Shown here: piece by piece, positions 2,337 to 16,204 of the stretch | Layout of the letters: each line of letters starts with the position of its first letter | How positions within the stretch are numbered: position 1 is the first letter of the stretch | Origin: an uncultured Flavobacteriales bacterium | Lineage (GTDB): Bacteria > Bacteroidota > Bacteroidia > Flavobacteriales > Schleiferiaceae | Reading direction: 5' to 3' | Assembly (NCBI GenBank): GCA_913055685.1 | Contig: CAJXKC010000001.1 | Location: 744,001-808,000, forward strand | Length of the DNA stretch: 64,000 nucleotides | Notes under the pieces: generated by a model | Database searches by the model: none | What the model saw: only the letters and a program-made list of their open reading frames with translations | Told to the model about the DNA's origin: nothing | Position numbers and translations under genes: made by a program

Positions 2337-2344
2337 AGTATTTT

Positions 2345-3032: not shown

Positions 3033-3244
3033 CCTAAGCTTGCATTAGATTAAATTTCTAACAAAATAGAAAGAACAGAAGAGCGGAATAAGGTCACTAT
3101 AGCCGAAGGAGTAATAGACTCCGTCAACATTGAAGATCCCCGCCCTTCTTCTACTGCATCATGTTCAGTTCATTAGGCCTTTTAGAGCCTGTTTCAAGGT
3201 TGTTATGAGACAAGTAGAAAGTGTTCTTCCCAATTCAAATTGTT
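3033..3244 (+). ncRNA. Probable bridge RNA region of the IS110 element
   Basis: Characterised IS110-group elements transcribe a bridge RNA from the non-coding left end that pairs with both target and donor DNA. This 212 bp segment has no open frame and contains nested complementarity: AGAAGAGCGG at 3077..3086 pairs with CCGCCCTTCT at 3140..3149 with one mismatch, enclosing a perfect GGAGT-aatag-ACTCC hairpin at 3108..3122. The function is inferred from the family; exact RNA ends are unknown. Confidence 0.55.
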
Positions 3245-4222
3245 ATGGATAAAATTAAGGAAAAGCTAGGGATTGATGTAAGTAAAGCGACCGTTGATTG
3301 TTACACAGAGACATTGGGTCACAGTCAATACATCAATAACGAGAAGGGCTGGAAGGAGTTAGTTTCGTCATTTTTGGCAGATAGCTATCATGTAGTGATG
3401 GAGGCTACTGGCACATATCATTATGGCTTAGCTGTTTATCTCTACGAGCAGGGTATTGCTGTATCCGTTGTTAACCCCTTAGTGATTAAGCGCTTCATTC
3501 AGATGAAGCTTCAACGCAACAAGACAGATAAGAGTGATGCGCGAATGATCTACGAGTATGCCTGCCATTCAAATCCGGATCAGTGGCAGCCTGATAGTGA
3601 ATACGTAGAGACAAGCAAGAATTACCTGTCTAGCTTGGAGTTGTATGCACGCCAATCAACCATGCTCAAGAATAGATTACACAGTCTCACTGCTAAAGGC
3701 ATTAAAAGAGGGCGTGTGATTACCTCCCTGAAGCGACAAATCAGACAGGTCCAACATGAGATAGATTATCTAGAAGAGGATTTGGAAGTATTAGTAAAAG
3801 CAAACGAACCAGAGTTGTATACGGCTTTAAGGAGTATACAAGGAATAGGAAAAAAGACGGCTATGCTACTGATTGCTAATACCAATGGCTTTAAGGATTT
3901 TGATAGCTCTAAACAAGTAAGTGCGTTCTTTGGATTAGCCCCCACCCACAGAGAGTCTGGAAGTAGTATCAGAGGAAGAAGTAGAATTAGTAAGAAAGGA
4001 AACCCCAGGGTGAGGAGTCACTTATTTCTTTGCAGTTTCACAGCCAGCCAGTGCAACCCACAATGCAGAGCCCTGTATCAAAGAATCATTGCTAAAGGAA
4101 AATCCAAGAAGCTTGCACTAATCGCAGTAGCTAACAAACTAATTAAACAGGCCTATGGAATCAGTAAATCAGGGCTAATCTATGATCCATACTACAGAAG
4201 CACTATGCCCAAGTCGAATTAA
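3245..4222 (+). CDS. IS110-family DEDD transposase
   Basis: A 325-residue transposase. The N-terminal RuvC-like domain shows the four acidic residues: D11 in GIDVSK, E53 in MEATGTYH, and D95 and D98 in KTDKSDAR. A coiled region spans about residues 130-190. The C-terminal Transposase_20 domain has IQGIGKKTAMLLI (an HhH-like motif, about 198-210) and FFGLAPTHRESGSSIRG, in which Ser238-Ser241 include the candidate catalytic serine. An earlier in-frame GTG at 3221 exists, but the ATG at 3245 gives the usual family start MDK..GIDVSK. No frameshift is seen, so the element may be active. Confidence 0.93.
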   Translation: MDKIKEKLGIDVSKATVDCYTETLGHSQYINNEKGWKELVSSFLADSYHVVMEATGTYHYGLAVYLYEQGIAVSVVNPLVIKRFIQMKLQRNKTDKSDARMIYEYACHSNPDQWQPDSEYVETSKNYLSSLELYARQSTMLKNRLHSLTAKGIKRGRVITSLKRQIRQVQHEIDYLEEDLEVLVKANEPELYTALRSIQGIGKKTAMLLIANTNGFKDFDSSKQVSAFFGLAPTHRESGSSIRGRSRISKKGNPRVRSHLFLCSFTASQCNPQCRALYQRIIAKGKSKKLALIAVANKLIKQAYGISKSGLIYDPYYRSTMPKSN

Positions 4223-4276
4223 AAAACATCACTTTTTTCTTGGTTTTAAGCTCAGTTCAATGTTGGGCACTGGCTT

Positions 4277-4594
4277 TTATTTTTTTCTTTTCAGCTTTTT
4301 TGGGTTTTGTCTCGTGTCAAATACGTCTGCTATCCTAATTTGACTTAGTTCATGATCCAGACTGTAAATGATCTTGTAGCTTTTATAAAGCACATATCGA
4401 TATTCAATCTTTAAGTCTATTAGCGAGAGCTCCAATTGACCTAGCTCCGGGTTTTTAATTAGACTATCCGGCGCTTTAATTATCCCGCGAGCGATTTTCT
4501 TAGCAACTTTTACAGAAGCCTCTTCCACATAGTAAGCGTAAATATTGGCAATTTGCTGTTCAGCAAAGCTAGACCATAGAATAGTCCAAGTCAT
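4277..4594 (-). CDS. RelE/ParE-type toxin (cassette 14)
   Basis: A 105-residue toxin of the RelE/ParE superfamily. The N-terminus TILWSSFAEQQIANIYAYYVEEAS, the EYRYVLYKSYKIIYSLD strand pair and the closing RIADVFDTRQNPKKL are diagnostic. Its start codon overlaps the antitoxin stop by one base (ATGA type). It differs clearly from the ParE of cassette 16, so the array holds two unrelated members of the superfamily. The stop lies 8 bp from the attC R'' box. Confidence 0.9.
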   Translation of the reverse strand: MTWTILWSSFAEQQIANIYAYYVEEASVKVAKKIARGIIKAPDSLIKNPELGQLELSLIDLKIEYRYVLYKSYKIIYSLDHELSQIRIADVFDTRQNPKKLKRKK

Positions 4595-4851
4595 TATTGA
4601 AAACGCTCAAGCAATTGTTCGGTAGTTTTATAATTGCCGTTTTTGAAATCGGCCTCCGATTGCTTAACACGCTTGATCATTTCTTCTTTTGAGAAAGGAT
4701 TCTCCGGCTCTCCTTTTTGTCTTTTGAGCAGAGCTTCAAATTTAGCTACAGCTTCCTCACTGGAAATCTTAAGGAATTCCTGAATGAACTCGAGTTTTCT
4801 AGTTTGTAGATCCATCTGGGAGAGTTTTTTCAAAGATAACGATTGTTTCAC
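4594..4851 (-). CDS. Antitoxin partner of the RelE/ParE toxin (cassette 14)
   Basis: An 85-residue charged protein directly upstream of, and overlapping by one base, the toxin gene. The middle (LEFIQEFLKISSEEAVAKFEALLKRQ) and the tail (FKNGNYKTTEQLLERFQ) resemble small Bacteroidota antitoxins that pair with ParE-like toxins; no canonical RHH, HTH or AbrB motif is evident. Assigned as antitoxin mainly from position, size and the EALLKRQK..NPFSKEEM pattern. Confidence 0.8.
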   Translation of the reverse strand: MKQSLSLKKLSQMDLQTRKLEFIQEFLKISSEEAVAKFEALLKRQKGEPENPFSKEEMIKRVKQSEADFKNGNYKTTEQLLERFQ

Positions 4852-4877
4852 TTTACCCGCAATCTTGTTTGGCTTGT

Positions 4878-5013
4878 GCCCAACGGACCCGGCTATGGCA
4901 AGTAAAGGAAATGCGAAGCTAGGTTGCGTTGAATTTTGATTAATTAAGGTTTTCCAATATCGGGAACAATAGGCGAGGAGGCAAGCCTTTATTTGCTATA
5001 GCCATTGTTGTGC
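4878..5013 (-). other. attC site of cassette 13
   Basis: Outer boxes gcccaac (4878..4884) and gttgtgc (5007..5013), inner arms GGCTATGGCAAGTAAAGG / CCTTTATTTGCTATAGCC, central spacer of about 80 bp shared with other sites of this type. The R'' box gttgtgc is the exact complement of the start box of the same cassette (gcacaac, 5696..5702). Confidence 0.92.
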
Positions 5014-5021
5014 CCTGTTAT

Positions 5022-5678
5022 TTATTCTTTTATGAGCTTGACTCTGTAGTGTTTCTTGTCTTCTCTTACCGTTAAAAAGTATATACCTTTTCTCAATTCT
5101 GAAACATCAACTCTATTTCTCCCAATTATTTTGAATGCAACTGGATTTCCAATTGAATTTGTGATGGTAATATTTTCCCTTCGCAAATCAGTAGGAAACT
5201 CAATTTCCATATCCTTTTTCACGGGGTTTGGAAATACACTCAATTTGTAAGGGTGATATTCATTTTGGTCTAATGGGATGTAAACATTCGCGTAAACTGT
5301 GTCACGATACCCAGGCCAGAGATTCCAAGTACAATTACTTGAATTAGTATCCCCATCCTTGTAAGACAAAATTTTGACTTGTTTAATGCCCGGTGATAGG
5401 TTATTCTGTAATGTAAATGTGGTGTCAAAATGCAGCCAGGCAAAGCTAATAGCGCAAGGGAGAAAGTGTATTGTTAGTTCGAGGGTGTCTCGATATATGC
5501 TATCACTTGATGATACGATTGCATTGGCGTCCAGGACTTCAATTCTACCAAATACTCTTATTGATAACTCTTGGTTAAGACCATCAAACGAGACCCTTGC
5601 TGAATCTAGATATTGACCTTTTACTGTGACTGAAGCTAACAGAATTAAAAGCACAATTAACGGTTGGAAGTTTTTCAT
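5022..5678 (-). CDS. Secreted protein with T9SS C-terminal sorting domain (cassette 13)
   Basis: A 218-residue exported protein. Residues 1-21 form a signal peptide ending VKG-Q. The C-terminal about 75 residues (LSVFPNPVKKDMEIEFP ... NRVDVSELRKGIYFLTV) are a type A T9SS sorting domain: FPNP start, ITITNSIGNPV core and GIYFLTV close. The passenger (about residues 22-140) is short and unrecognised. The protein should cross the inner membrane by Sec, then the outer membrane by T9SS. A mobile cassette carrying a cargo that depends on the host phylum's own secretion machine is notable. The stop lies 8 bp from the attC. Confidence 0.85.
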   Translation of the reverse strand: MKNFQPLIVLLILLASVTVKGQYLDSARVSFDGLNQELSIRVFGRIEVLDANAIVSSSDSIYRDTLELTIHFLPCAISFAWLHFDTTFTLQNNLSPGIKQVKILSYKDGDTNSSNCTWNLWPGYRDTVYANVYIPLDQNEYHPYKLSVFPNPVKKDMEIEFPTDLRRENITITNSIGNPVAFKIIGRNRVDVSELRKGIYFLTVREDKKHYRVKLIKE

Positions 5679-5695
5679 GTGGCTTGTCTAATAGG

Positions 5696-5832
5696 GCACA
5701 ACGGACCAGGCTATGGCAAGTAAAAGGAGCTGCGAAGCTAGGTTGCGTTGAGTTTTGATTAATTAGGGTTGTCAATATCGGAAAGCCTGCGGTATTGGCC
5801 AAGACCTTTATTTGCTATAGCCATTGTTGCCC
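5696..5832 (-). other. attC site of cassette 12
   Basis: Outer boxes gcacaac (5696..5702) and gttgccc (5826..5832), inner arms GGCTATGGCAAGTAAAAGG / CCTTTATTTGCTATAGCC. The R'' box complements the start box of cassette 12 (gggcaac, 7161..7167). The spacer differs from sister sites only near the apex. Confidence 0.92.
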
Positions 5833-5902
5833 GTAGTTTTATTTTTTCTCTTTAACGCCCAATGATAATCCCTTTTCCACTTATAGATTAAAAGCCTTAC
5901 AA

Positions 5903-5910
5903 TAACTTTG
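5903..5910 (+). promoter_or_regulatory. Candidate promoter -7 element for the reversed cassette gene
   Basis: TAACTTTG matches the Bacteroidota -7 consensus TAnnTTTG and lies about 31 bp before the ATG at 5942 on the plus strand. No good -33 TTTG is present at 19-21 bp; a TTTT run at 5873..5876 is slightly too far. Tentative. Confidence 0.35.
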
Positions 5911-5941
5911 TTGTCAACTTGATAACAATTGCCCCCTGATT

Positions 5942-7117
5942 ATGGGCGCTAGTAAATTTATCTGCATGCTTAAATACATTGTTGCCAAAAGGGTGGCTAC
6001 CACTCTACTACTGCTTATAATTTTTAGTTCTGTAAAGGGGCAGATTATACGCCCAAAACTATCATTGGGCCTTACAAATTATAGTTATTTACATGAAAAT
6101 GTTCTCGGTTCGATCCACGAGAATACGTTTACCAAAAGTATTATTACGGCACCTACTATAGGACTAAAATTAGATTTTCCAAAATATCACTTTGGAATTG
6201 AGTCAAATTATTATCAAGCCGCTGCAACAACAGTCCTAACGGATAGGTATCTGCTTTATGGTAAGCATTATTTTGATGTTGGTATTTATGGTTCTTATAA
6301 TGGATTTAGCGTTGCTGCATTTTACAATCACATTAACTTTAGAAACTATAAGTATTTTGGATTCGGAGACATAATGGATCTGGCTTATGAGCAAGGGGTT
6401 GGCCTAGGAATAGGGTATACTAAGGGATCGTATGATTTTTCATTAAGGCTTGAAAGAGCATGGGAGTGGAATCCAAGTAACACCAGGTTTCCACTTTCAA
6501 CTCGGGTTGAGATATTTTGCCTAAGATTGTTGCGAAACTTTGATTTGATTGAATTATCTAAAGAAGAGTCAACCCAGTTGGAAGGATTGGACAATGAGTT
6601 TTTCAACCTTCAATTTGGATTAATAGGCTCAGGTAATGGTCTTCATGGGTTGGTTGGATCGATGACCTACGCCAAGTTAGCACCGTCCATTGGGGTAGAG
6701 ATAAAGTATAAGGAATTTGGTGTTTACCTAAGAAGAAGTATGTGGGTGAATCTTGACCTCGAATTATCTGAAGCGGGTAAATTTAGTTCTGTAAATAATC
6801 AAATAGGACTGTCATATGACTTGGATTTGGTAGGCCTTTATGGTTTTAATATAGGTGTCCACCATGTTTGGAATTACACCCGTGGTCAGCAGCATTTAAA
6901 TTTACTTGAAGATCCATTGGGAGAAGAATTGGAGTTAGAAGAATTTGTATCCTACTTCCCTCAAAATCAAGGATTAGGTCTAGCTGTTAGCTATGAGCTA
7001 AATCGTCATCTAGAGTTTCTCCTGATATCTGATTTTTATTACAAAGCAGCTGCACGGCTGGGTAAAGGCTTCAACTCTGAAAGCTTAAGGTTGGGTTTAT
7101 TATACAATCTGCGTTAA
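5942..7117 (+). CDS. Exported beta-barrel-like protein, reversed in cassette 12
   Basis: A 391-residue protein, the largest cargo in the array and the only one on the plus strand, that is, back to front within its cassette. A signal peptide lies near the start (LKYIVAKRVATTLLLLIIFSSVKGQ); the start may be the ATG at 5942 or the one at 5966, which gives a cleaner leader. The rest shows many alternating aromatic strands (VGIYGSYNGFSVAAFYNHINF, FGVYLRRSMWVNLDLEL) and ends SLRLGLLYNLR, typical of an outer membrane barrel. It cannot be expressed from a common array promoter and so needs its own. Function unknown. Confidence 0.8.
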   Translation: MGASKFICMLKYIVAKRVATTLLLLIIFSSVKGQIIRPKLSLGLTNYSYLHENVLGSIHENTFTKSIITAPTIGLKLDFPKYHFGIESNYYQAAATTVLTDRYLLYGKHYFDVGIYGSYNGFSVAAFYNHINFRNYKYFGFGDIMDLAYEQGVGLGIGYTKGSYDFSLRLERAWEWNPSNTRFPLSTRVEIFCLRLLRNFDLIELSKEESTQLEGLDNEFFNLQFGLIGSGNGLHGLVGSMTYAKLAPSIGVEIKYKEFGVYLRRSMWVNLDLELSEAGKFSSVNNQIGLSYDLDLVGLYGFNIGVHHVWNYTRGQQHLNLLEDPLGEELELEEFVSYFPQNQGLGLAVSYELNRHLEFLLISDFYYKAAARLGKGFNSESLRLGLLYNLR

Positions 7118-7160
7118 CCTGGCAATTAAGGAAGCTTTGAACCTCGAAGGGTTTAATTAC

Positions 7161-7290
7161 GGGCAACGGTTTGCATATGGCTTGTGGCGGTTTCGAAGCA
7201 CTTTCCTGTCCACCGAAACTAAACCTGGCTACGGAGCGAAAACCTTGCTGATAGTTGTTCACCCGCCATAAGTTATATGCTTTGTTAGCT
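7161..7290 (-). other. attC site of cassette 11
   Basis: Outer boxes gggcaac (7161..7167) and gttagct (7284..7290), inner arms TTTGCATATGGCTTGTGGCGG / CCGCCATAAGTTATATGC. The R'' box complements the start box of cassette 11 (agctaac, 7690..7696). Nearly identical to the site at 9216..9345. Confidence 0.93.
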
Positions 7291-7309
7291 GCTGGCTTTT
7301 TTTCTTTTT

Positions 7310-7678
7310 CTACCATTTGATCATATCGATGAAGTTGTCAAATTTTTCAATTCCTTTTTCTTCATCATAAGTCCTGACAAATTCCGGCTCCTGAAAAGGC
7401 ATTGCGATGTATTCGAAGTGCCACTTTCTGCTCCAAAGGTCAAATGTGATATGTAATGCTTCTTTCCTATAGTCAATCGGGTCATAAATGCTTACAACAA
7501 GTTTGTCCATTGAAGTTGACCCGAAAATTCTATCTTGATAGTCAGAATTTTTAATGTGTCGAACTAATTCAAGCAGCCTTCCGTGTTTACCTTGCCAGTC
7601 TTTGATGTATCGATTTTCGATATAGTCCCACGTTTGAGCTTTGGCATTCCATGGATGATATGTTCTCTTCGTGTTCAT
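7310..7678 (-). CDS. Hypothetical protein (cassette 11)
   Basis: A 122-residue soluble, aromatic-rich protein (HPWNAKAQTWDYIENRYIKDW, LWSRKWHFEYIAMPF). No signal peptide or membrane segment and no recognised family. The ATG lies only 12 bp inside the cassette boundary, after a leader shared with cassettes 1 and 8 (GCTGCAAGCTAAAAATGAA), so it depends on an upstream promoter or on very short leader signals. Bounded by matching R''/R' boxes, so it is a genuine complete cassette. Confidence 0.75.
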   Translation of the reverse strand: MNTKRTYHPWNAKAQTWDYIENRYIKDWQGKHGRLLELVRHIKNSDYQDRIFGSTSMDKLVVSIYDPIDYRKEALHITFDLWSRKWHFEYIAMPFQEPEFVRTYDEEKGIEKFDNFIDMIKW

Positions 7679-7689
7679 TTTTAGCTTGC

Positions 7690-7819
7690 AGCTAACGGTT
7701 GCGCATAAACCAAGTGCGGCACCGCTGAAATAATATTAGGAGGTTAAAAACCTCCAAGTTACTGATTTTGCTTTGCTGGTGTGGCTGAAACACCGCATTT
7801 GGTTTATGCATTGTTGGCA
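7690..7819 (-). other. attC site of cassette 10
   Basis: Outer boxes agctaac (7690..7696) and gttggca (7813..7819), inner arms GCATAAACCAAGTGCGG / CCGCATTTGGTTTATGC, plus an apical GGAGGTTAAAAACCTCC hairpin. The R'' box complements the cassette's start box (tgccaac, 8493..8499). Sister of the site at 8493. Confidence 0.92.
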
Positions 7820-7826
7820 TTAGTTT

Positions 7827-8477
7827 TTATTCAATCCTCAAGTAATAGATGTAATAATGTAAAATTCCATGTTTAGTGTAAAACTGCTCTGGAGTTTCAC
7901 CATCAATAAGGCAATAGGAATTAGCGGAGGAGGAAACTTTCATTGGCGGAGTAAAAGCAAGAATTGGAACCCAATGGTTAGTCGGTATGTAAAAGGCCTG
8001 TTCCTTGTCTGTTTTTTGTAAAGCCCTGAATAAATACGATTCCGATCCTGCAATTATTTCATCCGTTGATAAGCTAGGATAGTCCAGGATCAGCCTTATT
8101 GAATCTTTGATAAACTTTGTTGCGAAATGGATTTCATACTCTTGCCATTGAGACTTAAACTTAAGGCGGTCACAAATGTCAACTGTATAATTAAGGGTGT
8201 CGTTACCTCTTGTAATTTTGTATACCTTTTTCTCACATCGTAGTACAGTGTCAGTACTTGTTAACTGTCCTTCAGAAAAAGTTTGCCGATATAACATCAG
8301 CTTTTTTCCTTTAGCCAGGGTATCGGTTGTTGAGATAGTTGCGAATTGAATTTTTTGTAAAGATTGTATAATCCGAGATTTTCTGTCAGTTCCAAATTTA
8401 TACTCAACTCTAATTGAGTCTTGTGCGAATGAGCATAATGCCCAGAAGGTTAATAAGGTTAATGCGGTTTTCTTCAT
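7827..8477 (-). CDS. Exported hypothetical protein (cassette 10)
   Basis: A 216-residue protein with a signal peptide at residues 1-19 (KKTALTLLTFWALCSFAQ, cleavage after Ala). The remainder is a mixed strand/helix protein with YVDICDRLKFKSQW and a Pro-rich segment TNHWVPILAFTPPMK; it ends HYYIYYLRIE. No named family. Its stop lies 8 bp before the attC. Probably periplasmic or surface located. Confidence 0.75.
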   Translation of the reverse strand: MKKTALTLLTFWALCSFAQDSIRVEYKFGTDRKSRIIQSLQKIQFATISTTDTLAKGKKLMLYRQTFSEGQLTSTDTVLRCEKKVYKITRGNDTLNYTVDICDRLKFKSQWQEYEIHFATKFIKDSIRLILDYPSLSTDEIIAGSESYLFRALQKTDKEQAFYIPTNHWVPILAFTPPMKVSSSANSYCLIDGETPEQFYTKHGILHYYIYYLRIE

Positions 8478-8492
8478 TGTCTTCTAAATTAA

Positions 8493-8621
8493 TGCCAACG
8501 GTTGGCATAAAGCTAGTGCGGCCCCGCTGAAACATTGTTAAGGTAAATGATTCATCCAACTTAGTGATTTTACGTTGCTGGGGACACTGAAACACCGCAT
8601 TAGCTTTATGTATTGTTAGCG
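8493..8621 (-). other. attC site of cassette 9
   Basis: Outer boxes tgccaac (8493..8499) and gttagcg (8615..8621), inner arms GCATAAAGCTAGTGCGG / CCGCATTAGCTTTATG. The R'' box complements the cassette's start box (cgctaac, 9216..9222). The stop codon of the cassette gene lies inside this R'' box. Confidence 0.93.
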
Positions 8622-9206
8622 GCAGTTTTTTTGTCCAAACTCCATAAATATCCCAATTTCCGGGTATCCTTCGCGGATTTGCTCAATTACAGTATCCAAT
8701 TGCTTTTGTTCGAAGCAGAATTTATTCGCTGAGCTTTCTAGAGATTGAAAAATACATTGTTCGCTTTGGCACGTGATTAACACTTTTGAGTAAATACCAA
8801 TGATAAACGCTTCAACATTACTGCTGTCCGAGTCATACTTTATTCTTCCAAAAAAATCACTTTTGATGATAGTAGAGTCAGGAAAGAAAGAAACCGTTTT
8901 CTCAATATCAATCCAATAAAAACTTTGGTGGACCTTAGTGTATTCCCAGGTTCCAAAGGGTTTGTTAAACCTGTATTCTCCTGATATGTCCACTATATAT
9001 TTAAAAGTGCCATCGGGATATCTAAATAATCTTAATTGCTCAAATTTACCCTCTATAGGCAGGTGCCTAAGGTATTTACCTTCAAGTGTGTCCCCTTGAA
9101 TTACCGTAAGATGCTGATTGTTTTTCGTGGTTTCAGTCATCTTTTGCCCATAAGTGACAGAGCTTTGAAGAAATAGGCAGATTATTATTAAGAGTATGTT
9201 CTTCAT
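8616..9206 (-). CDS. Exported hypothetical protein (cassette 9)
   Basis: A 196-residue protein with a signal peptide (KNILLIIICLFLQSSVTYGQ). The body has repeated YL-type strand segments (GKYLRHLPIEGKFEQLRLFRYPDG, KPFGTWEYTKVHQSFYWIDIEK) somewhat like MORN-type or antitoxin-like surface proteins of Bacteroidota, but no family is firm. The stop codon TAA is made by the GCTAAC of the attC R'' box, so the last residues NCR are encoded by the recombination site itself. Confidence 0.75.
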   Translation of the reverse strand: MKNILLIIICLFLQSSVTYGQKMTETTKNNQHLTVIQGDTLEGKYLRHLPIEGKFEQLRLFRYPDGTFKYIVDISGEYRFNKPFGTWEYTKVHQSFYWIDIEKTVSFFPDSTIIKSDFFGRIKYDSDSSNVEAFIIGIYSKVLITCQSEQCIFQSLESSANKFCFEQKQLDTVIEQIREGYPEIGIFMEFGQKNCR

Positions 9207-9215
9207 TTAAATTGC

Positions 9216-9345
9216 CGCTAACGGTTTGCATATGGCTTGTGGCGGTTTCGAAGCACTTTCCTGTCCACCGAAACCTAAGCTGGCTGCGAAGGGAAAACCT
9301 TGCTGGTAAACGTTCACCCGCCATAAGCTATATGCTTTGTTAGCT
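9216..9345 (-). other. attC site of cassette 8
   Basis: Outer boxes cgctaac (9216..9222) and gttagct (9339..9345), inner arms GCATATGGCTTGTGGCGG / CCGCCATAAGCTATATGC. The R'' box complements the start box of cassette 8 (agctaac, 9914..9920). The best-preserved palindrome of the array. Confidence 0.95.
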
Positions 9346-9355
9346 GCTGGCTTTT

Positions 9356-9901
9356 TTATTTTTTTCTAAATGCTTTCTCCAACTCTTCCGACTCGATAAT
9401 GTACTTCGTTATCTCTTTGTCAATCTTGTCAAGAAGTTTTAAGTCTCTTGGGTTGTTTATAAATCCAATCATGTCTTCATGGTTTATGTAATATCCTTTC
9501 AATTCATTTCCCTTAAAAAAGTACAGAATGTCAAACTCGTAATAATAGTGGTCGCTGTCAAATTCCCAATAATTTTGAGGTGGGGTCATTCCCTTCTCAT
9601 GAACGGAAAAGTCGAATTTGAGTAATTTCTCTTTGCAGTCATTATTTAAGTCGAACCGACAAACGATTTCATTTTCAAATTCTACAAGTCCAAGTTCTTT
9701 TAATTCCCAATTATCAAAAAAGTCAAGGCCGTTTGGAGAAAGGTTTTTTGTCTCTAGAATTTCCGCAAATCCAAAGCTGTCTGAAATTTGAAAGAAATAG
9801 TCGGTTAGGAGAGTTCTCCAAATTTCATCTGGAATTCCGTCCCATGAGGGAAAGAATTCTCCATTTAATTTAATTGCATTTAAAAATAGCTTGTCGTTCA
9901 T
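9356..9901 (-). CDS. Hypothetical protein, copy 2 of a duplicated cassette gene (cassette 8)
   Basis: A 181-residue acidic soluble protein starting MNDKLFLNAIKLNGEFFPSW and ending SEELEKAFRKK. No signal peptide, membrane segment or known domain was recognised. It is nearly identical to the product of cassette 1 (14371..14916); the few differences include A9/T9, T33/N33, K52/D53-type changes and G145/R145. The leader from the R' box to the ATG is also shared. The attC following this copy is of another type than that of cassette 1. Function unknown. Confidence 0.78.
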   Translation of the reverse strand: MNDKLFLNAIKLNGEFFPSWDGIPDEIWRTLLTDYFFQISDSFGFAEILETKNLSPNGLDFFDNWELKELGLVEFENEIVCRFDLNNDCKEKLLKFDFSVHEKGMTPPQNYWEFDSDHYYYEFDILYFFKGNELKGYYINHEDMIGFINNPRDLKLLDKIDKEITKYIIESEELEKAFRKK

Positions 9902-9913
9902 TTTTTAGCTTGC

Positions 9914-10055
9914 AGCTAACGGTCTTGCTAATGCAAGTTGGGAAGTTTTAGCAGGAACCAATTTGGGTTAGGTTACTCATCAAATTTAGCAAAAAACACC
10001 CCGCCACAGCGGGTACGGAGACGTAAAGCCCAATTTGCTTTAGCTTTTGTTGCCA
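9914..10055 (-). other. attC site of cassette 7
   Basis: Outer boxes agctaac (9914..9920) and gttgcca (10049..10055), inner arms TTGCTAATGCAAGTTGGG / CCCAATTTGCTTTAGC, plus an internal CCCGCCACAGCGGG hairpin. The R'' box complements the start box of cassette 7 (tggcaac, 10383..10389). Confidence 0.92.
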
Positions 10056-10382
10056 TGCGTTTTTTATTAATTCCTATCACTTTTTGAATTAGTTACTGAT
10101 TACCAGAAAGGAGGACTGACCTGAAATTTTTATTAATCGAGTATCGAAAATTATTTTGAGCAGGCTTAAATTTTTGGCTAGCCCTTAATCACCGATTTAA
10201 ACTACCTGGTAAGTTCCCTTTGGCTTTGAAGAGGGCTTTTCTTTGCCAGACTAACAACGCTCTGATGAATTTAAAAACGCCTCTGGTTCTAAATCCCTCT
10301 ATGCAGAGCTTTAATAACGATCGAAGACTAGCAGGTTAGATTATGCCAATTTGGGGGAAGCTTATTTATTTTTTAAAATGCT
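10056..10382 (-). other. Body of cassette 7, no conventional gene
   Basis: This 327 bp stretch between two intact attC sites contains no ORF with a normal start on either strand. The longest reading on the minus strand is 48 codons without an ATG (10189..10335; its end reads ALFKAKGNLPGSLNR). It could be a remnant of a gene, a very small protein with an unusual start, or a non-coding RNA cassette. The boundaries are clean, so it is a real cassette. Confidence 0.6.
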
Positions 10383-10523
10383 TGGCAACGGACCTGAATA
10401 AACACAGGTGGGAGGATTCAGCAGACCGCATCAGTTGTTAGGTTGATTCTCAAATTTAGCAAAAACATCCCGCCACAGCGGGTTGGAAGGTGGATGCCCA
10501 CTTGAGTTTATTTTTTGTTGGCG
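10383..10523 (-). other. attC site of cassette 6
   Basis: Outer boxes tggcaac (10383..10389) and gttggcg (10517..10523), inner arms GAATAAACACAGGTGGG / CCCACTTGAGTTTATT, internal CCCGCCACAGCGGG hairpin. The R'' box complements the start box of cassette 6 (cgccaac, 10882..10888). Confidence 0.92.
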
Positions 10524-10536
10524 GTAGTTTTTTTCT

Positions 10537-10863
10537 TTATATGAATCGGAGGTTTACCGTAATTGTCGAACCTTGTTTCTCTAATTCATATGATCTTAGT
10601 TTGTCAAGGTCATAATGGAATTGATTATCAAGGATTAAAAAGCCATTATCAAATGACCAGGAAGAACTGACTTTGTCAAGTAGATTGTCACCATAGTAAA
10701 TCAACATTCTATTCACTCCATTTTCTCTAATGAACTCTCTGAGCTCAGACTCTATTACCTCTCTGTTTGAAAGTTGCTCCTCTTCTTTTTCACAGCTAAG
10801 AAATGTTAGGCTGATTATGATGGAGATGATAGTTAAAATTCGACTTGGAATGATTTGTGCCAT
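10537..10863 (-). CDS. Small lipoprotein (cassette 6)
   Basis: A 108-residue protein whose leader MAQIIPSRILTIISIIISLTFLSC ends in a lipobox (LSC followed by acidic residues EKEEEQ), so it is a predicted lipoprotein; the acidic residues after the Cys fit the surface-export signal described for Bacteroidota lipoproteins. The body (REFIRENGVNRMLIYYGDNLL, GFLILDNQFHYDLDKL) is unrecognised. An in-frame TTG inside the R' box would add 8 residues, but the ATG at 10861-10863 is preferred because it gives a normal leader. Confidence 0.78.
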   Translation of the reverse strand: MAQIIPSRILTIISIIISLTFLSCEKEEEQLSNREVIESELREFIRENGVNRMLIYYGDNLLDKVSSSWSFDNGFLILDNQFHYDLDKLRSYELEKQGSTITVNLRFI

Positions 10864-10881
10864 TTGTTTTTTTTTAATTAC

Positions 10882-11012
10882 CGCCAACGGTTTTAATAAA
10901 CGCAGGGCGGCTTCGTCCGTGGTGTTGTAAAGAAACGGAATGTTTCTCTGTCAACCGTAAAGCCCGAACCGGAGCGGGGTTAAAGCCGACTTGCGTTTAT
11001 TTGTTGTTGTGG
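10882..11012 (-). other. attC site of cassette 5
   Basis: Outer boxes cgccaac (10882..10888) and gttgtgg (11006..11012), inner arms AATAAACGCAGGGCGGC / GCCGACTTGCGTTTATT. The R'' box complements the start box of cassette 5 (ccacaac, 11306..11312). Sister of the site at 11306. Confidence 0.93.
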
Positions 11013-11048
11013 CTAGTTTTTATTTCTTTTTTCAATTTTTTTTTCAGG

Positions 11049-11237
11049 TTAAATATTTGTCAACACAACAGTAAATATTGCTATTAGACCAAAAAATAAT
11101 GAAAGTGCAAATAAATTACCTTCCCAATTGTCGTTTACGTACTCTTTCAGCGGTTTTTTCCTGTAAACAATCCACCTCAAAAATCCGCCTATAGGAGAAA
11201 TTATAATTTCTATCAGTACCTGTAAAACTAAGTCCAC
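11049..11237 (-). CDS. Small membrane protein (cassette 5)
   Basis: A 62-residue protein with two probable membrane segments (about 3-22 and 43-61: LFALSLFFGLIAIFTVVLTNI) separated by a basic loop IVYRKKPLKEY. The reading starts with GTG at 11235-11237. It is the only reasonable gene in a 424 bp cassette. The size and two-helix form would suit a small exclusion, toxin or accessory membrane protein, but nothing identifies which. Confidence 0.6.
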   Translation of the reverse strand: MDLVLQVLIEIIISPIGGFLRWIVYRKKPLKEYVNDNWEGNLFALSLFFGLIAIFTVVLTNI

Positions 11238-11305
11238 GTTTCTGCTTTTATTCTGTCAATCACAATGGTCAAGAATGAGTTGTCAATTTTGTCTTTTCAA
11301 ATTAG

Positions 11306-11436
11306 CCACAACGGTTTGAATAAACGCAGGGCGGCTTCGTCCGTGGTTTTGTAAAGAAACGATAGGTTTCTCTGTCAAGCGAAAAACCGCTACTGGAGAG
11401 GGATTAAAGCCGCCTTGAGTTTATTTTTTGTTAGCC
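11306..11436 (-). other. attC site of cassette 4
   Basis: Outer boxes ccacaac (11306..11312) and gttagcc (11430..11436), inner arms GAATAAACGCAGGGCGGC / GCCGCCTTGAGTTTATT. The R'' box complements the start box of cassette 4 (ggctaac, 12053..12059). It contains the stop codon of the cassette gene. Confidence 0.94.
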
Positions 11437-12042
11437 ACCGTTTTTATTTTTTAAATTTTCTTCGATGATTCTCATAGTGAAAGAGGTTGTGTCGTAGTCT
11501 CCATTTTTATCCAGGTGGAACAGGACTTTGTCAGAGGTCAAGATTAATTTTCTGGTCATAAAATCGTTTCCGATGGGTCTTTCCTTGTCGAGATAAATAG
11601 TGTCTTGGTCAAGGTCGTAGTTCCCTTCGGTGAAGTCTCCTCCTAAGATGCTGTTGTTTTCAAGCTTGTAAGTTCCGTCCTCTCTTAATTTCAACGCGAT
11701 TCCGTTGATGTCACCATCGTAATAAGCTTGTAGAATAACAGGGCTGTCATTTTCGGTGTCTCCTAAAGTAAGAATTCCCAAATTCACGACTGTTGCCAAT
11801 CCAATAATAATGACTGGAATGTAAAAGGTTTTTGAATTGGTTCTTCGTGCGTATTTGACGGAATAGAAAATTGTCGGAGTTGCGATAAGAAATCCCAGTC
11901 CATACCAGAGCAGGGTTTCGAAGCTGTCAAAAATGAACCATTCATTACTGTTAAACTTGGATATTTCATGTCGGAGGACTACAAAAGCCGAAAGAATTGA
12001 TAGGGTCGTCAGGATGATTTTTCTTGTTGTCTCCGATTTCAT
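11431..12042 (-). CDS. Membrane-anchored hypothetical protein (cassette 4)
   Basis: A 203-residue protein with three predicted membrane helices (about 8-24, 38-60 and 70-92) and a C-terminal soluble domain of about 100 residues with the pattern LREDGTYKLENNSILGGDFTEGNYDLDQDTIYLDKE, which resembles small lipocalin-like or YD-strand domains. The stop TAA is formed by the attC R'' box (GGTGGCTAAC gives Gly-Gly-stop), so gene and recombination site overlap. No family recognised. Confidence 0.75.
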   Translation of the reverse strand: MKSETTRKIILTTLSILSAFVVLRHEISKFNSNEWFIFDSFETLLWYGLGFLIATPTIFYSVKYARRTNSKTFYIPVIIIGLATVVNLGILTLGDTENDSPVILQAYYDGDINGIALKLREDGTYKLENNSILGGDFTEGNYDLDQDTIYLDKERPIGNDFMTRKLILTSDKVLFHLDKNGDYDTTSFTMRIIEENLKNKNGG

Positions 12043-12052
12043 TTCAAATGGT

Positions 12053-12194
12053 GGCTAACGGTTCTGAATAAACACAGGTGGGAGAGTTTAGCAGAAACCA
12101 TTGGTATTTAGATTAATCATCAAATTTGAGATTTCACTTCCCGCCTCAGCGGGTTGGTAGCGAAATGCCCACTTGAGTTTATTTGTTGTTGGCG
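12053..12194 (-). other. attC site of cassette 3
   Basis: Outer boxes ggctaac (12053..12059) and gttggcg (12188..12194), inner arms GAATAAACACAGGTGGG / CCCACTTGAGTTTATT, internal CCCGCCTCAGCGGG hairpin. The R'' box complements the start box of cassette 3 (cgccaac, 12893..12899). Sister of 10383. Confidence 0.93.
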
Positions 12195-12209
12195 TGTCGT
12201 GTTTTTCTT

Positions 12210-12494
12210 TTATTCCGCTTTAAGCTGAATAGATAGGCCTAGTGCATGAGCCAGCAAAGCAAAGTTTGATAACCTGATGTCCTCGCCATTTTCAATTCTT
12301 GAAATGTAAGGTCTTTTCTTTCCGACCATCTCAGCTAGTTTCTCCTGGCTAATATGAAGTTCCTTTCTGCGGTTTTTTATGATTTCGCCGAAATAGTAAG
12401 AAAAGGCCTCTTCTTTAAACTCTTCTCGTTCTTTACTTCCTTTTTTCCCGAAGCGCTGACTCAGTAGGTCTTCTGCTTTAACTGCTTTACTCAT
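12210..12494 (-). CDS. higA: HigA-type HTH antitoxin (cassette 3)
   Basis: A 94-residue protein with an XRE-type helix-turn-helix in the C-terminal half: IIKNRRKELHISQEKLAEMVGKKRPYISRIENGEDIRLSNF (HTH core about residues 38-75). It follows its toxin gene and overlaps it by 8 bp, the reversed toxin-first order that is typical of HigBA. The antitoxin is expected to bind the toxin and repress the operon promoter. Confidence 0.9.
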   Translation of the reverse strand: MSKAVKAEDLLSQRFGKKGSKEREEFKEEAFSYYFGEIIKNRRKELHISQEKLAEMVGKKRPYISRIENGEDIRLSNFALLAHALGLSIQLKAE

Positions 12495-12834
12495 CTTCCT
12501 TGCTTTTTAAATACTCTTCCAGAGCTTGTTCTGCCTTTTTTAGGGCCTTTTTATAGTCTTTGGTGGACTTTTTTTGAAAACCATAAAGGCAAACAGCTTT
12601 TTTACATTCACTAAAATTGAGATGATCGATCGCGAAGATTACCACGCGGTACTCATTGCCTGCTTTGATTCTCAATTCATAAAACTGAGAGTTTTGCAAC
12701 TTCTTGATGAAGCTTGAATGAACAACTTTGACTTGTGTAAGGATTTCCAATAGTTGGAAAAACTTTAAGGAAACCCTGTTATTTTGACTGTCAATGAAGT
12801 CCAAGCAGTTCTGAGTGATTTCGATTTCTCTCAT
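12487..12834 (-). CDS. higB: HigB/Gp49-type RelE-family toxin (cassette 3)
   Basis: A 115-residue toxin. The segment SSFIKKLQNSQFYELRIKAGNEYRVVIFAID and the later CLYGFQKKSTKDYKKALKKAEQALEEY are characteristic of the phage-derived Gp49/HigB branch of the RelE superfamily, which cleaves mRNA on the ribosome. It is first in its operon, followed by an XRE antitoxin. The ATG at 12832-12834 is about 58 bp from the cassette boundary, leaving room for its own promoter. Confidence 0.9.
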   Translation of the reverse strand: MREIEITQNCLDFIDSQNNRVSLKFFQLLEILTQVKVVHSSFIKKLQNSQFYELRIKAGNEYRVVIFAIDHLNFSECKKAVCLYGFQKKSTKDYKKALKKAEQALEEYLKSKEDE

Positions 12835-12892
12835 GGAGCAAATGTAACTAAAAAGTTACATAATTAATAACGGCAAAGTTGGTTTGCATGCA

Positions 12893-13029
12893 CGCCAACG
12901 GACCCGGCTATGGCAAGTAAAGGATTTGCGAAGCGAGGTTATACCGCGGTTTAGATTAATTAAGGTTTTCCAATATCGGGAACAATGGGCGGAGCAGCAA
13001 ACCTTTATTTGCTATAGCCATTGTTGTGC
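12893..13029 (-). other. attC site of cassette 2
   Basis: Outer boxes cgccaac (12893..12899) and gttgtgc (13023..13029), inner arms GGCTATGGCAAGTAAAGG / CCTTTATTTGCTATAGCC. The R'' box complements the start box of cassette 2 (gcacaac, 14230..14236). Same type as 4878 and 5696. Confidence 0.93.
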
Positions 13030-13039
13030 CTTCGTGTTT

Positions 13040-14122
13040 TTATTTTTCCAGAACATCCATTAAGGACGGATTCAAGTATAATTTTTCTTTTCCAACTCTT
13101 ACGGATTTCAAGAATCCCTTTTCTTCTAATGCAATAAGATAGTTCCCAACTGTTTTCGGAGTACCTAAATTTATATCAATCAAGTTTTGCCTCTTTGTGT
13201 AAGGAAGTTTAAAGAGGACTTCAACTAAATCTTTGGAATACACCTTCGGAAGCTTCTCTCTTATTTCCTGTCCTGTAGTTTCCATGAGCTGAATTATAGA
13301 CTCCAGTCTTTCTAATCCTTTAACGGCTGTTGTTTCTACCATATCAAGCATGTAGAGTATGAACTGAGACCAGTCATTTTTCTCCGTGATTGATTTTAAT
13401 CCTTCGTAGTACTTTTCCTTGTGTTTAATGATATATTCACTTAGGAAAAGGGCAGGAACATCTAATAGCTGCTCTAGTTTTAATTGAAGTAAAAGTAGGA
13501 TACGACCTGTTCTTCCATTACCATCTGAAAATGGATGTATTGCTTCAAATTGGTAATGTGACACGGCCATTTTTATAAGAGGATCAATGGCATCATTTTC
13601 ATTGATAAAGGTTTCGAGATTGGCCATCTTTTCGCGTATCACATGTTCTCCCGAGGGAGGGGTGTAGATTACTTCACCTTTTGTATTTGATAGCGTAGTC
13701 CCTGGTGTAGTTCTGATGCCGGCCGTATTTTGTTTAATGCACTGTACAATCTCAACACAAAGGTTTGTTGTTATGAAAGGTTGTTTCTCGAGTCGCTGAA
13801 ATCCTAACCAAATAGCTTCTTTATAGCTGATGACTTCTTTGGTTGCAGTATTATCAAATTTCTTATCCGCTACTGCAGCTTGATACAAATCATCATTGGT
13901 TGTAATGATATTCTCGATTTCAGAACTAGCCTTGGCCTCTTGTAAGTGGAGTGTGTCCAGAAATAAACTTGGGTTGGGAAGATTTCTGATAGCCCCATTT
14001 AATTGAGCGAGAGCTCGGCTGGCTTTAATCGTTTTTGTTAAAATCTCCTTAGTTTCCAAATCAGCTTTAGGAGGAAGAAGGGGAAGATCATTGTATGGTT
14101 GGGATTTGTCAAAGCCTGTCAT
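13040..14122 (-). CDS. Fic-domain AMPylase-like protein (cassette 2)
   Basis: A 360-residue Fic protein. The active-site motif HPFSDGNGRTGR is complete at residues 196-207 (catalytic H196). An N-terminal inhibitory motif S66-x-x-x-E70-N71 (SSEIEN) fits the class II auto-inhibited layout, in which the Glu competes with ATP. The N-terminal part (NDLPLLPPKADL..) and the C-terminal winged-helix-like tail (YTKRQNLIDINLGTPKTVGNYLIALEEKGFLK) match the common Bacteroidota Fic/DUF4172-type architecture. Members transfer AMP or related groups onto proteins. No separate antitoxin is needed because inhibition is intramolecular. Confidence 0.92.
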   Translation of the reverse strand: MTGFDKSQPYNDLPLLPPKADLETKEILTKTIKASRALAQLNGAIRNLPNPSLFLDTLHLQEAKASSEIENIITTNDDLYQAAVADKKFDNTATKEVISYKEAIWLGFQRLEKQPFITTNLCVEIVQCIKQNTAGIRTTPGTTLSNTKGEVIYTPPSGEHVIREKMANLETFINENDAIDPLIKMAVSHYQFEAIHPFSDGNGRTGRILLLLQLKLEQLLDVPALFLSEYIIKHKEKYYEGLKSITEKNDWSQFILYMLDMVETTAVKGLERLESIIQLMETTGQEIREKLPKVYSKDLVEVLFKLPYTKRQNLIDINLGTPKTVGNYLIALEEKGFLKSVRVGKEKLYLNPSLMDVLEK

Positions 14123-14229
14123 AACGAGAGTAGTCTTTACGCTTAAGTTAATAACGAGGGTAAATATATTAAAAATCTACTCCTGTTTTAATTTGAAAGG
14201 TAATCTTTACTCTTGTTTGACGACATGAG

Positions 14230-14360
14230 GCACAACGGCCCTGGCTATGGCAAGTGCGGGGTTTGGAACCGCTTTCTTATCCGCCTACCGTAATTATATT
14301 TAGTTTTAAAATCTTCATTTTTAAGCAGTCAGCCCGCATTTGCTATAGCCGATGTTAGCT
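14230..14360 (-). other. attC site of cassette 1
   Basis: Outer boxes gcacaac (14230..14236) and gttagct (14354..14360), inner arms GGCTATGGCAAGTGCGGG / CCCGCATTTGCTATAGCC. The R'' box complements the start box of cassette 1 (agctaac, 14930..14936). Confidence 0.92.
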
Positions 14361-14370
14361 GCTGGCTTTT

Positions 14371-14916
14371 TTATTTTTTTCTAAATGCTTTCTCCAACTC
14401 TTCTGACTCGATAATGTACTTGGTTATCTCTTTGTCAATCTTGTCAAGAAGTTTTAAGTCCGCTGGGTTGTTGATAAATCTAATCATGTCTTCATGGTTT
14501 ATGTAATATCCTTTCAATTCATTTCCCTTAAAAAAGTACAGAATGTCAAACTCATAATAAAAGTGGTCGCTGTCAAATTCCCAATAATTTCGAGGTGGGG
14601 TCATTCCTTTCTCATGGACGGAAAAGTCGTATTTGAGTAATTTCTCTTTACAGTCATTATTTAAGTCGAACCGACAGACGATTTCATTTTCAAATTCTAC
14701 AAGTCCAAGTTCTTTTAATTCCCAATTCTCAAAAAAATCAAGGCCGTTTGGAGAAAGGTCTTTAGTCTCTAGAACTTCCGCAAATCCAAAGCTGTCTGAA
14801 ATTTGAAAGAAATAGTCGTTGAGGAGAGTTCTCCAAATTTCATCTGGAATTCCGTCCCATGATGGAAAGAATTCTCCATTTAATTTAATTGTATTTAGAA
14901 ATAACTTGTCGTTCAT
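14371..14916 (-). CDS. Hypothetical protein, copy 1 of a duplicated cassette gene (cassette 1)
   Basis: The first cassette next to the recombinase encodes a 181-residue unknown, nearly identical to the cassette 8 product (9356..9901) along its whole length. It is acidic, rich in Phe and Tyr (DSDHFYYEFDILYFFKGNELKGYYINHEDMI) and likely cytosolic. The ATG lies 14 bp inside the cassette boundary. Being first in the array, it should be the most strongly expressed from a cassette promoter. The function is unknown. Confidence 0.78.
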   Translation of the reverse strand: MNDKLFLNTIKLNGEFFPSWDGIPDEIWRTLLNDYFFQISDSFGFAEVLETKDLSPNGLDFFENWELKELGLVEFENEIVCRFDLNNDCKEKLLKYDFSVHEKGMTPPRNYWEFDSDHFYYEFDILYFFKGNELKGYYINHEDMIRFINNPADLKLLDKIDKEITKYIIESEELEKAFRKK

Positions 14917-14929
14917 TTTTTCAGCTTGC

Positions 14930-15055
14930 AGCTAACTAGTTTTTATTCAAAGCTAAGTTGCTTTATATCTGCCAAAAAATTGGGATAAACCCAGAAAGGG
15001 ATTGGGGATAAGAAGCAGCTCAGATTTCAAAAATAGGCAATCGCGATGAATTACC
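14930..15055 (-). other. Candidate attI region
   Basis: This is the non-coding stretch between the recombinase stop and the first cassette. Cassette 1 begins at box agctaac (14930..14936). On the recombinase side of the crossover the sequence no longer resembles an attC, which is the definition of an attI/cassette junction. A second similar box, GCTAAGTTGC, occurs at 14952..14961 and might be a recombinase binding arm. The attI call is an inference from position. Confidence 0.6.
14948..14976 (-). promoter_or_regulatory. Candidate cassette promoter (Pc) in the attI region
   Basis: On the minus strand TTTG (14973..14976) and TAGCTTTG (14948..14955) are separated by 17 bp, which fits the Bacteroidota sigma-A promoter (TTTG/TTG, 17-23 bp, TAnnTTTG). 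Transcription would start near 14941 and read straight into cassette 1 and the array. Prediction only. Confidence 0.45.
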
Positions 15056-16204
15056 TTAGTCGAGTTGCAAGTCGTCAAAGGGACTTTTCACCTTTTGCAG
15101 CGTTTTGGTGCTTACATGGGTGTAAATTTCCGTGGTTTTACTGCTGCTATGCCCTAAAAGTTCTTGCACCAAGCGTAAGTCTGTTCCGGACTCCAGCAAG
15201 TGGGTAGCGAAACTATGCCGCAGCATATGTGAGAATACCGGTCTTTCGATGCCACAGCGCTCGGCAGCGGCTTTTAATATGGCATTGATGCTACTTGCAG
15301 AATATTGTTTTCCACCCGGACCAGGAATTAGATAGTGTTTCGGTCGAAAATGGATCAAATAGGAATTGATTAAAGCCAAAATTCCATCCGAAAGGGGTAA
15401 GCGACGATCCTTGCTGCCTTTGCTTTGGATGATATGTAAAACCTTGCGTTCAAAATGAATGTCGCTAACTTTCAAACGAAGTAGTTCGCCTACCCGCAGG
15501 CCGCAGGCGTATTGTAAAGAAATGGCCAAACGGTGCTTTTCGTTGCTAATACCTCGTAACATCTGCTCAATTTCCGATTGACTAAAAACCTTGGGGAGCT
15601 TCTTTTCTTTACGCGGACTTTCGATTCGGTCTAGGTCCAGTTGTCTTTGTAAACGCTTGCTGTAGAAAAGCTTAAGCGCACTAATAAACTGCCTTTGGGT
15701 GCTTACCGTGTACTGATGGGCTACAAAGAAATTGTGGATGAATTTGTTGAGGTCATCGTTGTTTAATAGGTCCAAGTCTTCTTGCTCAAAATGGGCTAGA
15801 AAAATAGTGAGCATCGACTCATAGGTTTTAATCGTGCTCTCGGCATAATGACGCACTCGCAATAGTCGTTGGTATTCCTCAAATTCTTTGCTGTGTTTCG
15901 GGGGGACTTTTCGAACTATTGTTGGCTTTTGCTGACTGCGACGATTTAGCTCAATCTGTAAAGAAAGGTCTTCTTCGCGCTCCTGGCGGAAGGCTTCGTA
16001 ATTTACATAGCCATGCGGTTTTAAGTAATTGAAAAGTTCCTGGATGACCCCAGGTCGATATTGAGTGTACCAGATCTTACGCTCTAGGTAATAGCGGCAA
16101 GGGAAGGCTTTTACGAGGTCTTTCGTGGCCATGTCGAAGGGAAAAAGTACGGCCACCTTCAATTGATCTTGAAGGTAGAGCTTCTGAAGGGTAAAGGTGA
16201 TCAT
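15056..16204 (-). CDS. Tyrosine recombinase, likely cassette integrase
   Basis: A 382-residue tyrosine recombinase. A core-binding (SAM-like) domain spans about residues 105-190, and a catalytic domain about 205-375 holds R237 (CGLRVGE), K262/K265 (SKGSKDR), H326-x-x-R329 (HMLRHSF), H352 (LGHSS) and Y361 (IYTHV). The tail VKSPFDDL resembles the VRSPLDAL end of IntI1. The roughly 30-40 residue insert found in IntI before the HxxR motif is missing, and about 100 residues of unknown type are added at the N-terminus (FPFDMATKDLVKAFPCRYYLERKIWYTQ region). The gene lies next to the first cassette and points the same way as the cassettes. It could instead be an unrelated XerC/D-like recombinase. Confidence 0.85.
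   Translation of the reverse strand: MITFTLQKLYLQDQLKVAVLFPFDMATKDLVKAFPCRYYLERKIWYTQYRPGVIQELFNYLKPHGYVNYEAFRQEREEDLSLQIELNRRSQQKPTIVRKVPPKHSKEFEEYQRLLRVRHYAESTIKTYESMLTIFLAHFEQEDLDLLNNDDLNKFIHNFFVAHQYTVSTQRQFISALKLFYSKRLQRQLDLDRIESPRKEKKLPKVFSQSEIEQMLRGISNEKHRLAISLQYACGLRVGELLRLKVSDIHFERKVLHIIQSKGSKDRRLPLSDGILALINSYLIHFRPKHYLIPGPGGKQYSASSINAILKAAAERCGIERPVFSHMLRHSFATHLLESGTDLRLVQELLGHSSSKTTEIYTHVSTKTLQKVKSPFDDLQLD

Follow-up and report, generated by a model that had tools for sequence, protein, structure and literature searches.

The window, as we call the 64,000-nucleotide stretch of DNA from an uncultured Flavobacteriales bacterium analyzed here, carries what appears to be a chromosomal integron belonging to a type that occurs chiefly in Bacteroidota, in which the tyrosine recombinase encoded beside the cassette array would be the integrase. 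Judging from the sequence comparisons set out below, we consider it probable, at roughly 0.8, that this I2-less recombinase works as an integron integrase and recombines folded single-stranded attC sites by a recognition code other than that of IntI. Because the domain that defines IntI is missing, the recombinase is not an IntI by definition. Passages of PMC7790495 state that I2 is required for cassette capture and that its deletion abolishes IntI1 function; they also give the accepted account, in which the gain of I2 made a Xer-like enzyme an integron integrase, and describe intermediates as lacking. The additional domain is likewise treated as a hallmark of IntI in a passage of PMC9668308. 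The nearest remark to an I2-less integrase comes from an excerpt of PMC8138268, where the insertion in an 'integron-like' subgroup is called 'not fully conserved'. In the literature searched, outside of which lie most subscription journals and bioRxiv, we found no account of integron integrases lacking I2, nor of the Bacteroidota family with an N-terminal domain (N-domain) reported here. A family of I2-less enzymes beside folded attC sites that mostly lack the bases docked by I2 makes the I2-acquisition account directly testable.

Results

The recombinase lacks the I2 region

All of the catalytic residues that a preliminary description of this DNA had listed (R237, K262, K265, H326, R329, H352, and Y361) are present in the recombinase, and R237, K262, H326, R329, H352, and Y361 are invariant across a 33-member family alignment. 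The same description had placed about 55 residues between the segments SKGSKDRRLPL (261–271) and HMLRHSF (from 326), against about 90 in IntI1; we count 54 and 97, respectively. Measured from R267 to H326, the spacing is 58 residues in the recombinase, compared with 100 in IntI1, 99–105 in all but one of 24 IntI-type proteins (the exception, L141, has 81), and 65–66 in the XerC/XerD proteins of related genomes. The IntI model TIGR02249 scores 216.4 bits, under its 265-bit cut-off, and its alignment splits into two pieces (positions 5–176 and 239–315), as it does in other listed family members. These pieces flank the gap, and together with the spacing they confirm that the IntI-specific insert is missing, as had been proposed. 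The closest solved structure by sequence, the Vibrio integron integrase 2a3v, also aligns in two pieces with the insert absent between them, and it ranks first by predicted fold as well (mean pLDDT 84 for the whole recombinase). Scores for the XerC and XerD models fall far below their cut-offs (TIGR02224, 181 versus 335.15 bits; TIGR02225, 195.5 versus 329.6 bits). The NCBIfam model NF040815, 'site-specific tyrosine recombinase/integron integrase', is passed narrowly (221.7 bits, cut-off 220), and since its name covers both XerA and integron functions, it decides neither.

In an 81-row quick tree, 15 IntI proteins fall on one side of a branch with an SH-aLRT support of 100, and the recombinase falls outside. 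A tree that groups the recombinase with the IntI proteins is not rejected (p-AU 0.567), and the same holds for a topology that keeps the N-domain family together as one clade, with IntI, XerC/D, and other recombinases outside it (p-AU 0.728, with L098, which has the domain, placed inside and the ambiguous L013, L024, L081, L092, L094, and L097 set aside). With both topologies unrejected, we do not file the recombinase as an IntI. I2 may never have been present in this lineage, or it may have been lost. The positions of the gene, its domains, and the neighboring array are collected in Table 1.

Table 1. Features of the window, with positions counted from its first nucleotide
Feature	Position	Strand	Basis or remark
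Candidate integron integrase (I2-less, N-domain-bearing tyrosine recombinase, 382 aa)	15056..16204	-	ORF, domain models, and alignment
N-terminal domain, residues 1–75, predicted beta-beta-alpha-beta-beta-alpha-beta; weak HARP/DUF5710/XPB likeness	15980..16204	-	
Core-binding (SAM-like) domain, residues 109–189	15638..15880	-	Pfam PF13495
Catalytic domain, residues 206–366, with R237, K262, H326, R329, H352, Y361	15107..15589	-	Pfam and alignment
Residues 268–325; IntI1 has 42 more residues here, I2 included	15230..15403	-	Spacing comparison
Candidate attI; first-cassette junction at G 14936, 119 nt after integrase stop	14932..14996	-	
Cassette array: first-cassette junction and 14 GTT boundaries, then two degenerate sites	1486..14936	-	
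attC 1	14228..14364	-	
attC 2	12891..13033	-	
attC 3	12051..12198	-	
attC 4	11304..11440	-	
attC 5	10880..11016	-	
attC 6	10381..10527	-	
attC 7	9912..10059	-	
attC 8	9214..9349	-	
attC 9	8491..8625	-	
attC 10	7688..7823	-	
attC 11	7159..7294	-	
attC 12	5694..5836	-	
attC 13	4876..5017	-	
attC 14, split by IS110-type element	2970..4270	-	R' 2978; R'' ~4262 (by eye), matches own cassette start

Between the integrase gene and a tRNA-Ala gene (16418–16492), a tRNA-Ala-like piece seen by eye lies around a GC hairpin at about 16320–16371 of the window and is perhaps a remnant.

A cassette array with own-start complementarity

The cassette array is real. Read on the minus strand, each attC site has the order R'' AAC, L'' arm, variable middle, L' arm, GTT. 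At every one of the 13 intact sites, the flank upstream of the R'' AAC shows complementarity with the beginning of the site's own cassette over 4–7 bases beyond GTT/AAC, as against just 0–3 bases with the beginning of the next cassette, and none of 10,000 permutations of the cassette starts reaches the observed sum. This own-start rule is the expected residue of site-specific exchange between the G and the TT of the R' site, and own-start complementarity fits known integron cassettes. Chance repeats were considered as the source of the array and are ruled out by the permutation test and by the shuffled controls given below.

The fourteenth attC encloses an IS110-type transposase gene (3018–4242; Pfam Transposase_20 and DEDD_Tnp_IS110); insertion of IS110-type elements into attC sites is known from other integrons. 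At degenerate sites near 2209 and 1494, R' reads CTT instead of GTT and no R'' AAC was found, and these sites apparently represent the decayed end of the array. The cargo comprises ParE and PemK toxins, a Gp49/HTH pair, a Fic protein, and proteins with no Pfam match. Further attC-like copies lie away from the integrase in the same genome, on contig C1 at about 1.297–1.299 Mb (L337) and about 1.531–1.533 Mb (L338), and the copy at 1297380 (L337) passes the own-start test. Separately, segments of two cassettes, at 9307–9606 and 14322–14621 of the window, are 92% alike over 300 nt and reach into two 181-aa ORFs, a likeness that we attribute to cassette duplication or repeated capture.

Most N-domain recombinases adjoin attC arrays

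Across 59 genomes related at levels from genus to order, the window's own included, matches to the recombinase at E 1.3e-48 or better occur in 19, again counting its own genome; XerC/XerD-like matches follow from about 1e-39 down. We applied an N-domain profile to a set consisting of the window, the loci from the 59 genomes, a Rufibacter tibetensis plasmid, and the best 80 of at least 593 matches, and 46 loci in this set carry the domain. The named hosts are nearly all Bacteroidota (Flavobacteriaceae, Cyclobacteriaceae, Hymenobacteraceae, Saprospiraceae, and Bacteroidales); outside the phylum, there are one MAG labelled Spirochaetota and one labelled Undinarchaeales, each of which may be contamination.

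Our site finder requires an own-start match together with paired L arms. It detected co-directional downstream attC cassettes in 22 of the 25 N-domain loci of the first sample, window included, that have at least 1.5 kb of downstream sequence, and in 3 of 25 after the downstream DNA had been shuffled. Left out of this count were the 21 of the 46 N-domain loci with less than 1.5 kb downstream, four of which still show a site; assembly-breaking repeats would explain why contigs end behind the integrase. The finder had been designed on the window and on loci that are partly in the first sample, and the second sample was fetched after it had been fixed. This sample consisted of 40 regions picked from a longer list of N-domain matches, mostly frames of 345–441 aa with E < 1e-10. 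Once regions with less than 1.5 kb downstream (L305, L312, L317, L319, L324, and L331) or with a broken or short frame (L303 and L310) were excluded, 30 of 32 loci had downstream attC cassettes (1 of 32 when shuffled). The preliminary description had reasoned that an extension common among homologs and never near attC arrays would mark an unrelated recombinase; the two samples give the opposite result.

Despite at least 1.5 kb of downstream sequence, no downstream site was detected at L052, L096, and L100 in the first sample or at L329 and L335 in the second; L052 (9394–14180, genome G007) departs from most other loci in that the attC sites found there are on the divergent side of its N-domain integrase gene. 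A looser version of the finder, which is not limited to the downstream side of the integrase, returned 27 sites in shuffles of 100 loci, and a single weak site is therefore no proof of an array.

None of the 15 loci of recombinases with XerC/D spacing has downstream cassettes, and they occur in 3 of 18 loci whose recombinase shares the core spacing and has no in-frame N-domain. Two of these three (L040 and L121) have an N-domain upstream in another frame; the third is L104. The alternative that a core spacing of 58 alone predicts arrays is ruled out by this 3 of 18.

Among mobile elements, two phage records cover at least 80% of the query, and 15 phage matches listed begin at residue 106 or later. 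No match starts before query residue 56 among the 80 viral-contig loci listed. Six plasmid records cover at least 80% of the query, of which the Rufibacter tibetensis plasmid (L066) was examined. On that plasmid, an annotated IS110 family gene stands behind the recombinase.

The attC sites bear a bottom-strand folding signature and mostly lack 3'-arm bulges

Among 105 attC sites at 27 loci, the bottom strand is predicted to fold more stably than the top strand in 100. The mismatches in the arms form a G.T wobble on the bottom strand in 163 cases, on the top strand in 16, and on neither in 80; by locus, the lean is to the bottom strand in 24 of 27, with equality in the other three. The second sample repeats this pattern, with a more stable bottom strand in 83 of 92 sites and wobbles divided 147 bottom, 31 top, and 70 neither. 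The simplest cause of the bias is selection on the folded bottom strand. Beside canonical IntI, the wobbles are split 11 bottom, 1 top, and 20 neither, and this 11:1 lean means that the bias is not special to the N-domain family.

According to passages of PMC7790495, single unpaired bases in the 3' arm are of the kind that IntI docks via I2. Of the sites beside canonical IntI, 34 of 46 have a single-base bulge in this arm, versus 20 of 191 N-domain-family sites; the two sets were found with different offset limits (9 and 5, respectively), and 8 of the 23 canonical loci yielded none. Sites of the same array are not independent observations; taken locus by locus, bulged sites are the majority in 11 of 15 canonical loci versus 6 of 59 of the N-domain family. 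The 11 sites of the window that were scored have no extrahelical base in the 3' arm. Bulges in the 5' arm run the other way, with 31 of 191 in the N-domain family versus 1 of 46 in the canonical set. The I2-less enzyme and its bulge-poor attC sites thus appear, from sequence comparison, to lack both halves of one recognition device together. The missing I2 region and the scarcity of 3'-arm extrahelical bases both support the earlier proposal that the recombinase, if it moves the cassettes, must recognize attC in a way unlike that of IntI.

Two further regularities were noted in the attC sites. A C precedes GTT in 104 of 105 sites and faces an A after AAC in 102 of 105, and the unpaired spacer is longer on one side in N-domain-family sites, an asymmetry that is also common in the canonical set. 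The wobble pattern, this C/A pair at GTT/AAC, the asymmetric spacer, and the N-domain are candidates for a substitute for I2.

A candidate attI beside the integrase gene

At 39 loci, the first cassette starts 15–200 nt past the integrase stop, with a median of 100 nt; at some 20 more loci that have sites, the start detected first is not within this range and mostly lies further away. The bases before the junction GTT are alike across hosts, with A at -8 in 34 of 39 and A at -4 in 32 of 39, and a loose TATA-type pattern precedes 15 of the 39 junctions versus 5 of 358 GTTR words within integrase genes. Repeats around the junction are in modest excess: direct repeats reach a score of at least 18 at 11 of 39 junctions (9.6% of shuffles), and inverted repeats are present at 8 of 39 (11.4% of shuffles). 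On these comparisons, we regard the conserved first-cassette junction beside the recombinase gene as a candidate attI.

The N-terminal domain

The preliminary description had called the first 100 residues additional to the core-binding domain. Pfam is indeed empty over residues 1–100, and the first 80 are predicted to be compact; the N-domain folded alone, with the topology given in Table 1, has a mean pLDDT of 89. The domain is common to 16, and in an enlarged alignment to 33, members of the family. The recombinase's own N-domain has no Pfam match; across 30 members of the family, DUF5710 matches 8 (best 4e-5) and HARP matches 2 (best 0.0013). A PDB profile search ranked a designed protein first (E 0.0029), followed by two retroviral-integrase domains (0.13 and 0.19) and, in fourth place, the SMARCAL1 HARP domain (0.28). 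Foldseek gave no significant match, with HARP seventh at E 1.1. In VIA-align, where a Z below 8 may reflect a common arrangement, the top match to the predicted domain is the N-terminal part of an archaeal XPB (Z 6.8, rmsd 4.8 over 64), and the N-terminal part of T4 UvsW (Z 6.3) is level with the unrelated CASTOR1, YciH, and aIF1 (Z 6.0–6.3). A classical arm-binding domain is absent among the VIA-align matches listed, which excludes nothing.

Helicase domains of the HARP, XPB, and UvsW types recognize DNA structure. SMARCAL1, as an excerpt of PMC9368896 reports, is stimulated by fork DNA and prefers it. The N-domain may read DNA structure, namely the attC hairpin, a role to which we give slightly less than an even chance, and it might do so as a reader of the junction between single- and double-stranded DNA.

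In a different class of the phylum, proteins with frames of about 200–570 aa (G103, G152, G338, G357, G365, and G171) are also hit by the N-domain profile, often at two places.

Discussion

Under the integrase reading, cassettes would be excised and inserted at G^TT of attC sites folded from the bottom strand, and insertion would take place at an attI shortly 3' of the integrase gene, with the array then running in the same direction. We infer that the recombinase carries out catalysis on single-stranded attC. With no I2, and with attC sites that mostly lack the bases docked by I2, strand choice and synapsis would have to depend on something else, for which the wobble-biased bottom-strand helix, the unpaired spacer, and the N-domain are possible candidates. 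The system shares with IntI integrons the attC cassette array, G^TT junctions, own-start complementarity, and the bottom-strand folding signature, as well as the catalytic residues, an SPLD-type C-terminal tail that IntI1 also has, and a conserved first-cassette junction beside the gene. Unlike IntI, the recombinase has no I2 insert, scores below the TIGR02249 cut-off, and carries an extra N-domain; its family's attC sites are mostly free of 3'-arm extrahelical bases, and its gene precedes the array and points the same way, a layout that differs from the mostly divergent one of IntI loci. With the finder of the first sample, IntI loci had sites downstream in 2 of 10 and on the divergent side in 5 of 8; in the set for the bulge comparison, 7 of 16 were divergent, 2 had sites downstream, and 7 had no sites. 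XerA, XerC, and XerD resemble the recombinase in their core-binding and catalytic architecture, the absence of I2, and the narrow pass of NF040815, but XerC and XerD differ from it in spacing, in the N-domain, and in the cassette arrays. The HARP, XPB, and T4 UvsW N-terminal domains rank nearest to the predicted N-domain, with weak scores, but they are carried by helicases and not by recombinases. Lambda Int and IntCTnDOT also have an additional N-terminal domain, yet the arm-binding fold described in a passage of PMC8138268 has three strands and one helix, and the predicted topology of the N-domain differs from it.

The array could instead be moved by another recombinase, either an IntI acting in trans or XerC/XerD, with the neighboring enzyme a bystander. 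The genome does encode five other tyrosine recombinase matches and holds attC-like copies elsewhere, and canonical IntI is frequent in the phylum's other classes: of 296 genomes sampled, 84 have an IntI over the TIGR02249 cut-off, and of the 86 genomes listed with an IntI match, one is in the same class as the window's genome and 85 are in others. Within the window's own genome and its 58 relatives from genus to order, however, no IntI over that cut-off was found (0 of 59); the attC sites are mostly without the extrahelical bases that IntI uses, and the association with N-domain recombinases, together with the conserved junction, holds in both samples. We consider a bystander role very improbable. 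An Xer-like action of the recombinase on double-stranded attC and attI, in which no hairpins form, is improbable too: the NF040815 pass and the absence of I2 would suit it, but the wobble bias (163:16 and 147:31) and the greater stability of the bottom strand in both samples are hard to explain unless the bottom strand folds. The earlier proposal that this recombinase moves the cassettes is thus strongly supported by the association, the conserved junction, the own-start rule, and the lack of an IntI over cut-off in the 59 genomes.

The main rival to a structure-reading role for the N-domain is attI binding. In an arm-binding-like capacity, the domain would bind accessory repeats at attI or hold the tetramer together, and attC would be read by the core-binding and catalytic domains alone. 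The pre-junction bases common to different hosts and the modest excess of direct and inverted repeats at some loci fit this alternative, whereas the predicted fold is nearest to helicase domains that read DNA structure, a likeness too weak to decide, and no classical arm-binding domain appears among the VIA-align matches listed. We regard arm binding as a serious possibility that falls somewhat short of even odds. The suggestion in the preliminary description that the N-terminal extension reads attC therefore stands as plausible: the weak HARP/DUF5710/XPB likeness in relatives and the power of the domain to predict a neighboring array speak for it, but the domain could bind attI instead. Our proposal of a second kind of integron integrase, one that recombines single-stranded attC with neither I2 nor extrahelical bases and in which a HARP/XPB-like N-domain reads the hairpin, is accordingly tentative, with a chance of being right that we put just under one half. 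If it is true, integrons have at least two solutions, of which I2 is one, or I2 was added later; in either case it was not their founding invention.

In Bacteroidota, integrons are probably more frequent than is visible to tools relying on an IntI-specific profile. The N-domain profile has matches in 70 of 395 genomes sampled from the phylum, not all of them integrases, whereas the part of PMC9024848 that lists results of IntegronFinder 2.0 names Salinibacter ruber as the one complete integron, newly found, in Bacteroidetes proper, besides those known earlier from Chlorobi and Ignavibacteriae. A short relative of the catalytic part, with 46.6% identity and a spacing of 58, is encoded on an Acinetobacter schindleri plasmid (L068, 2989–3615). 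The N-domain was not found in this relative, which adjoins tet(X3) and a copy of IS26.
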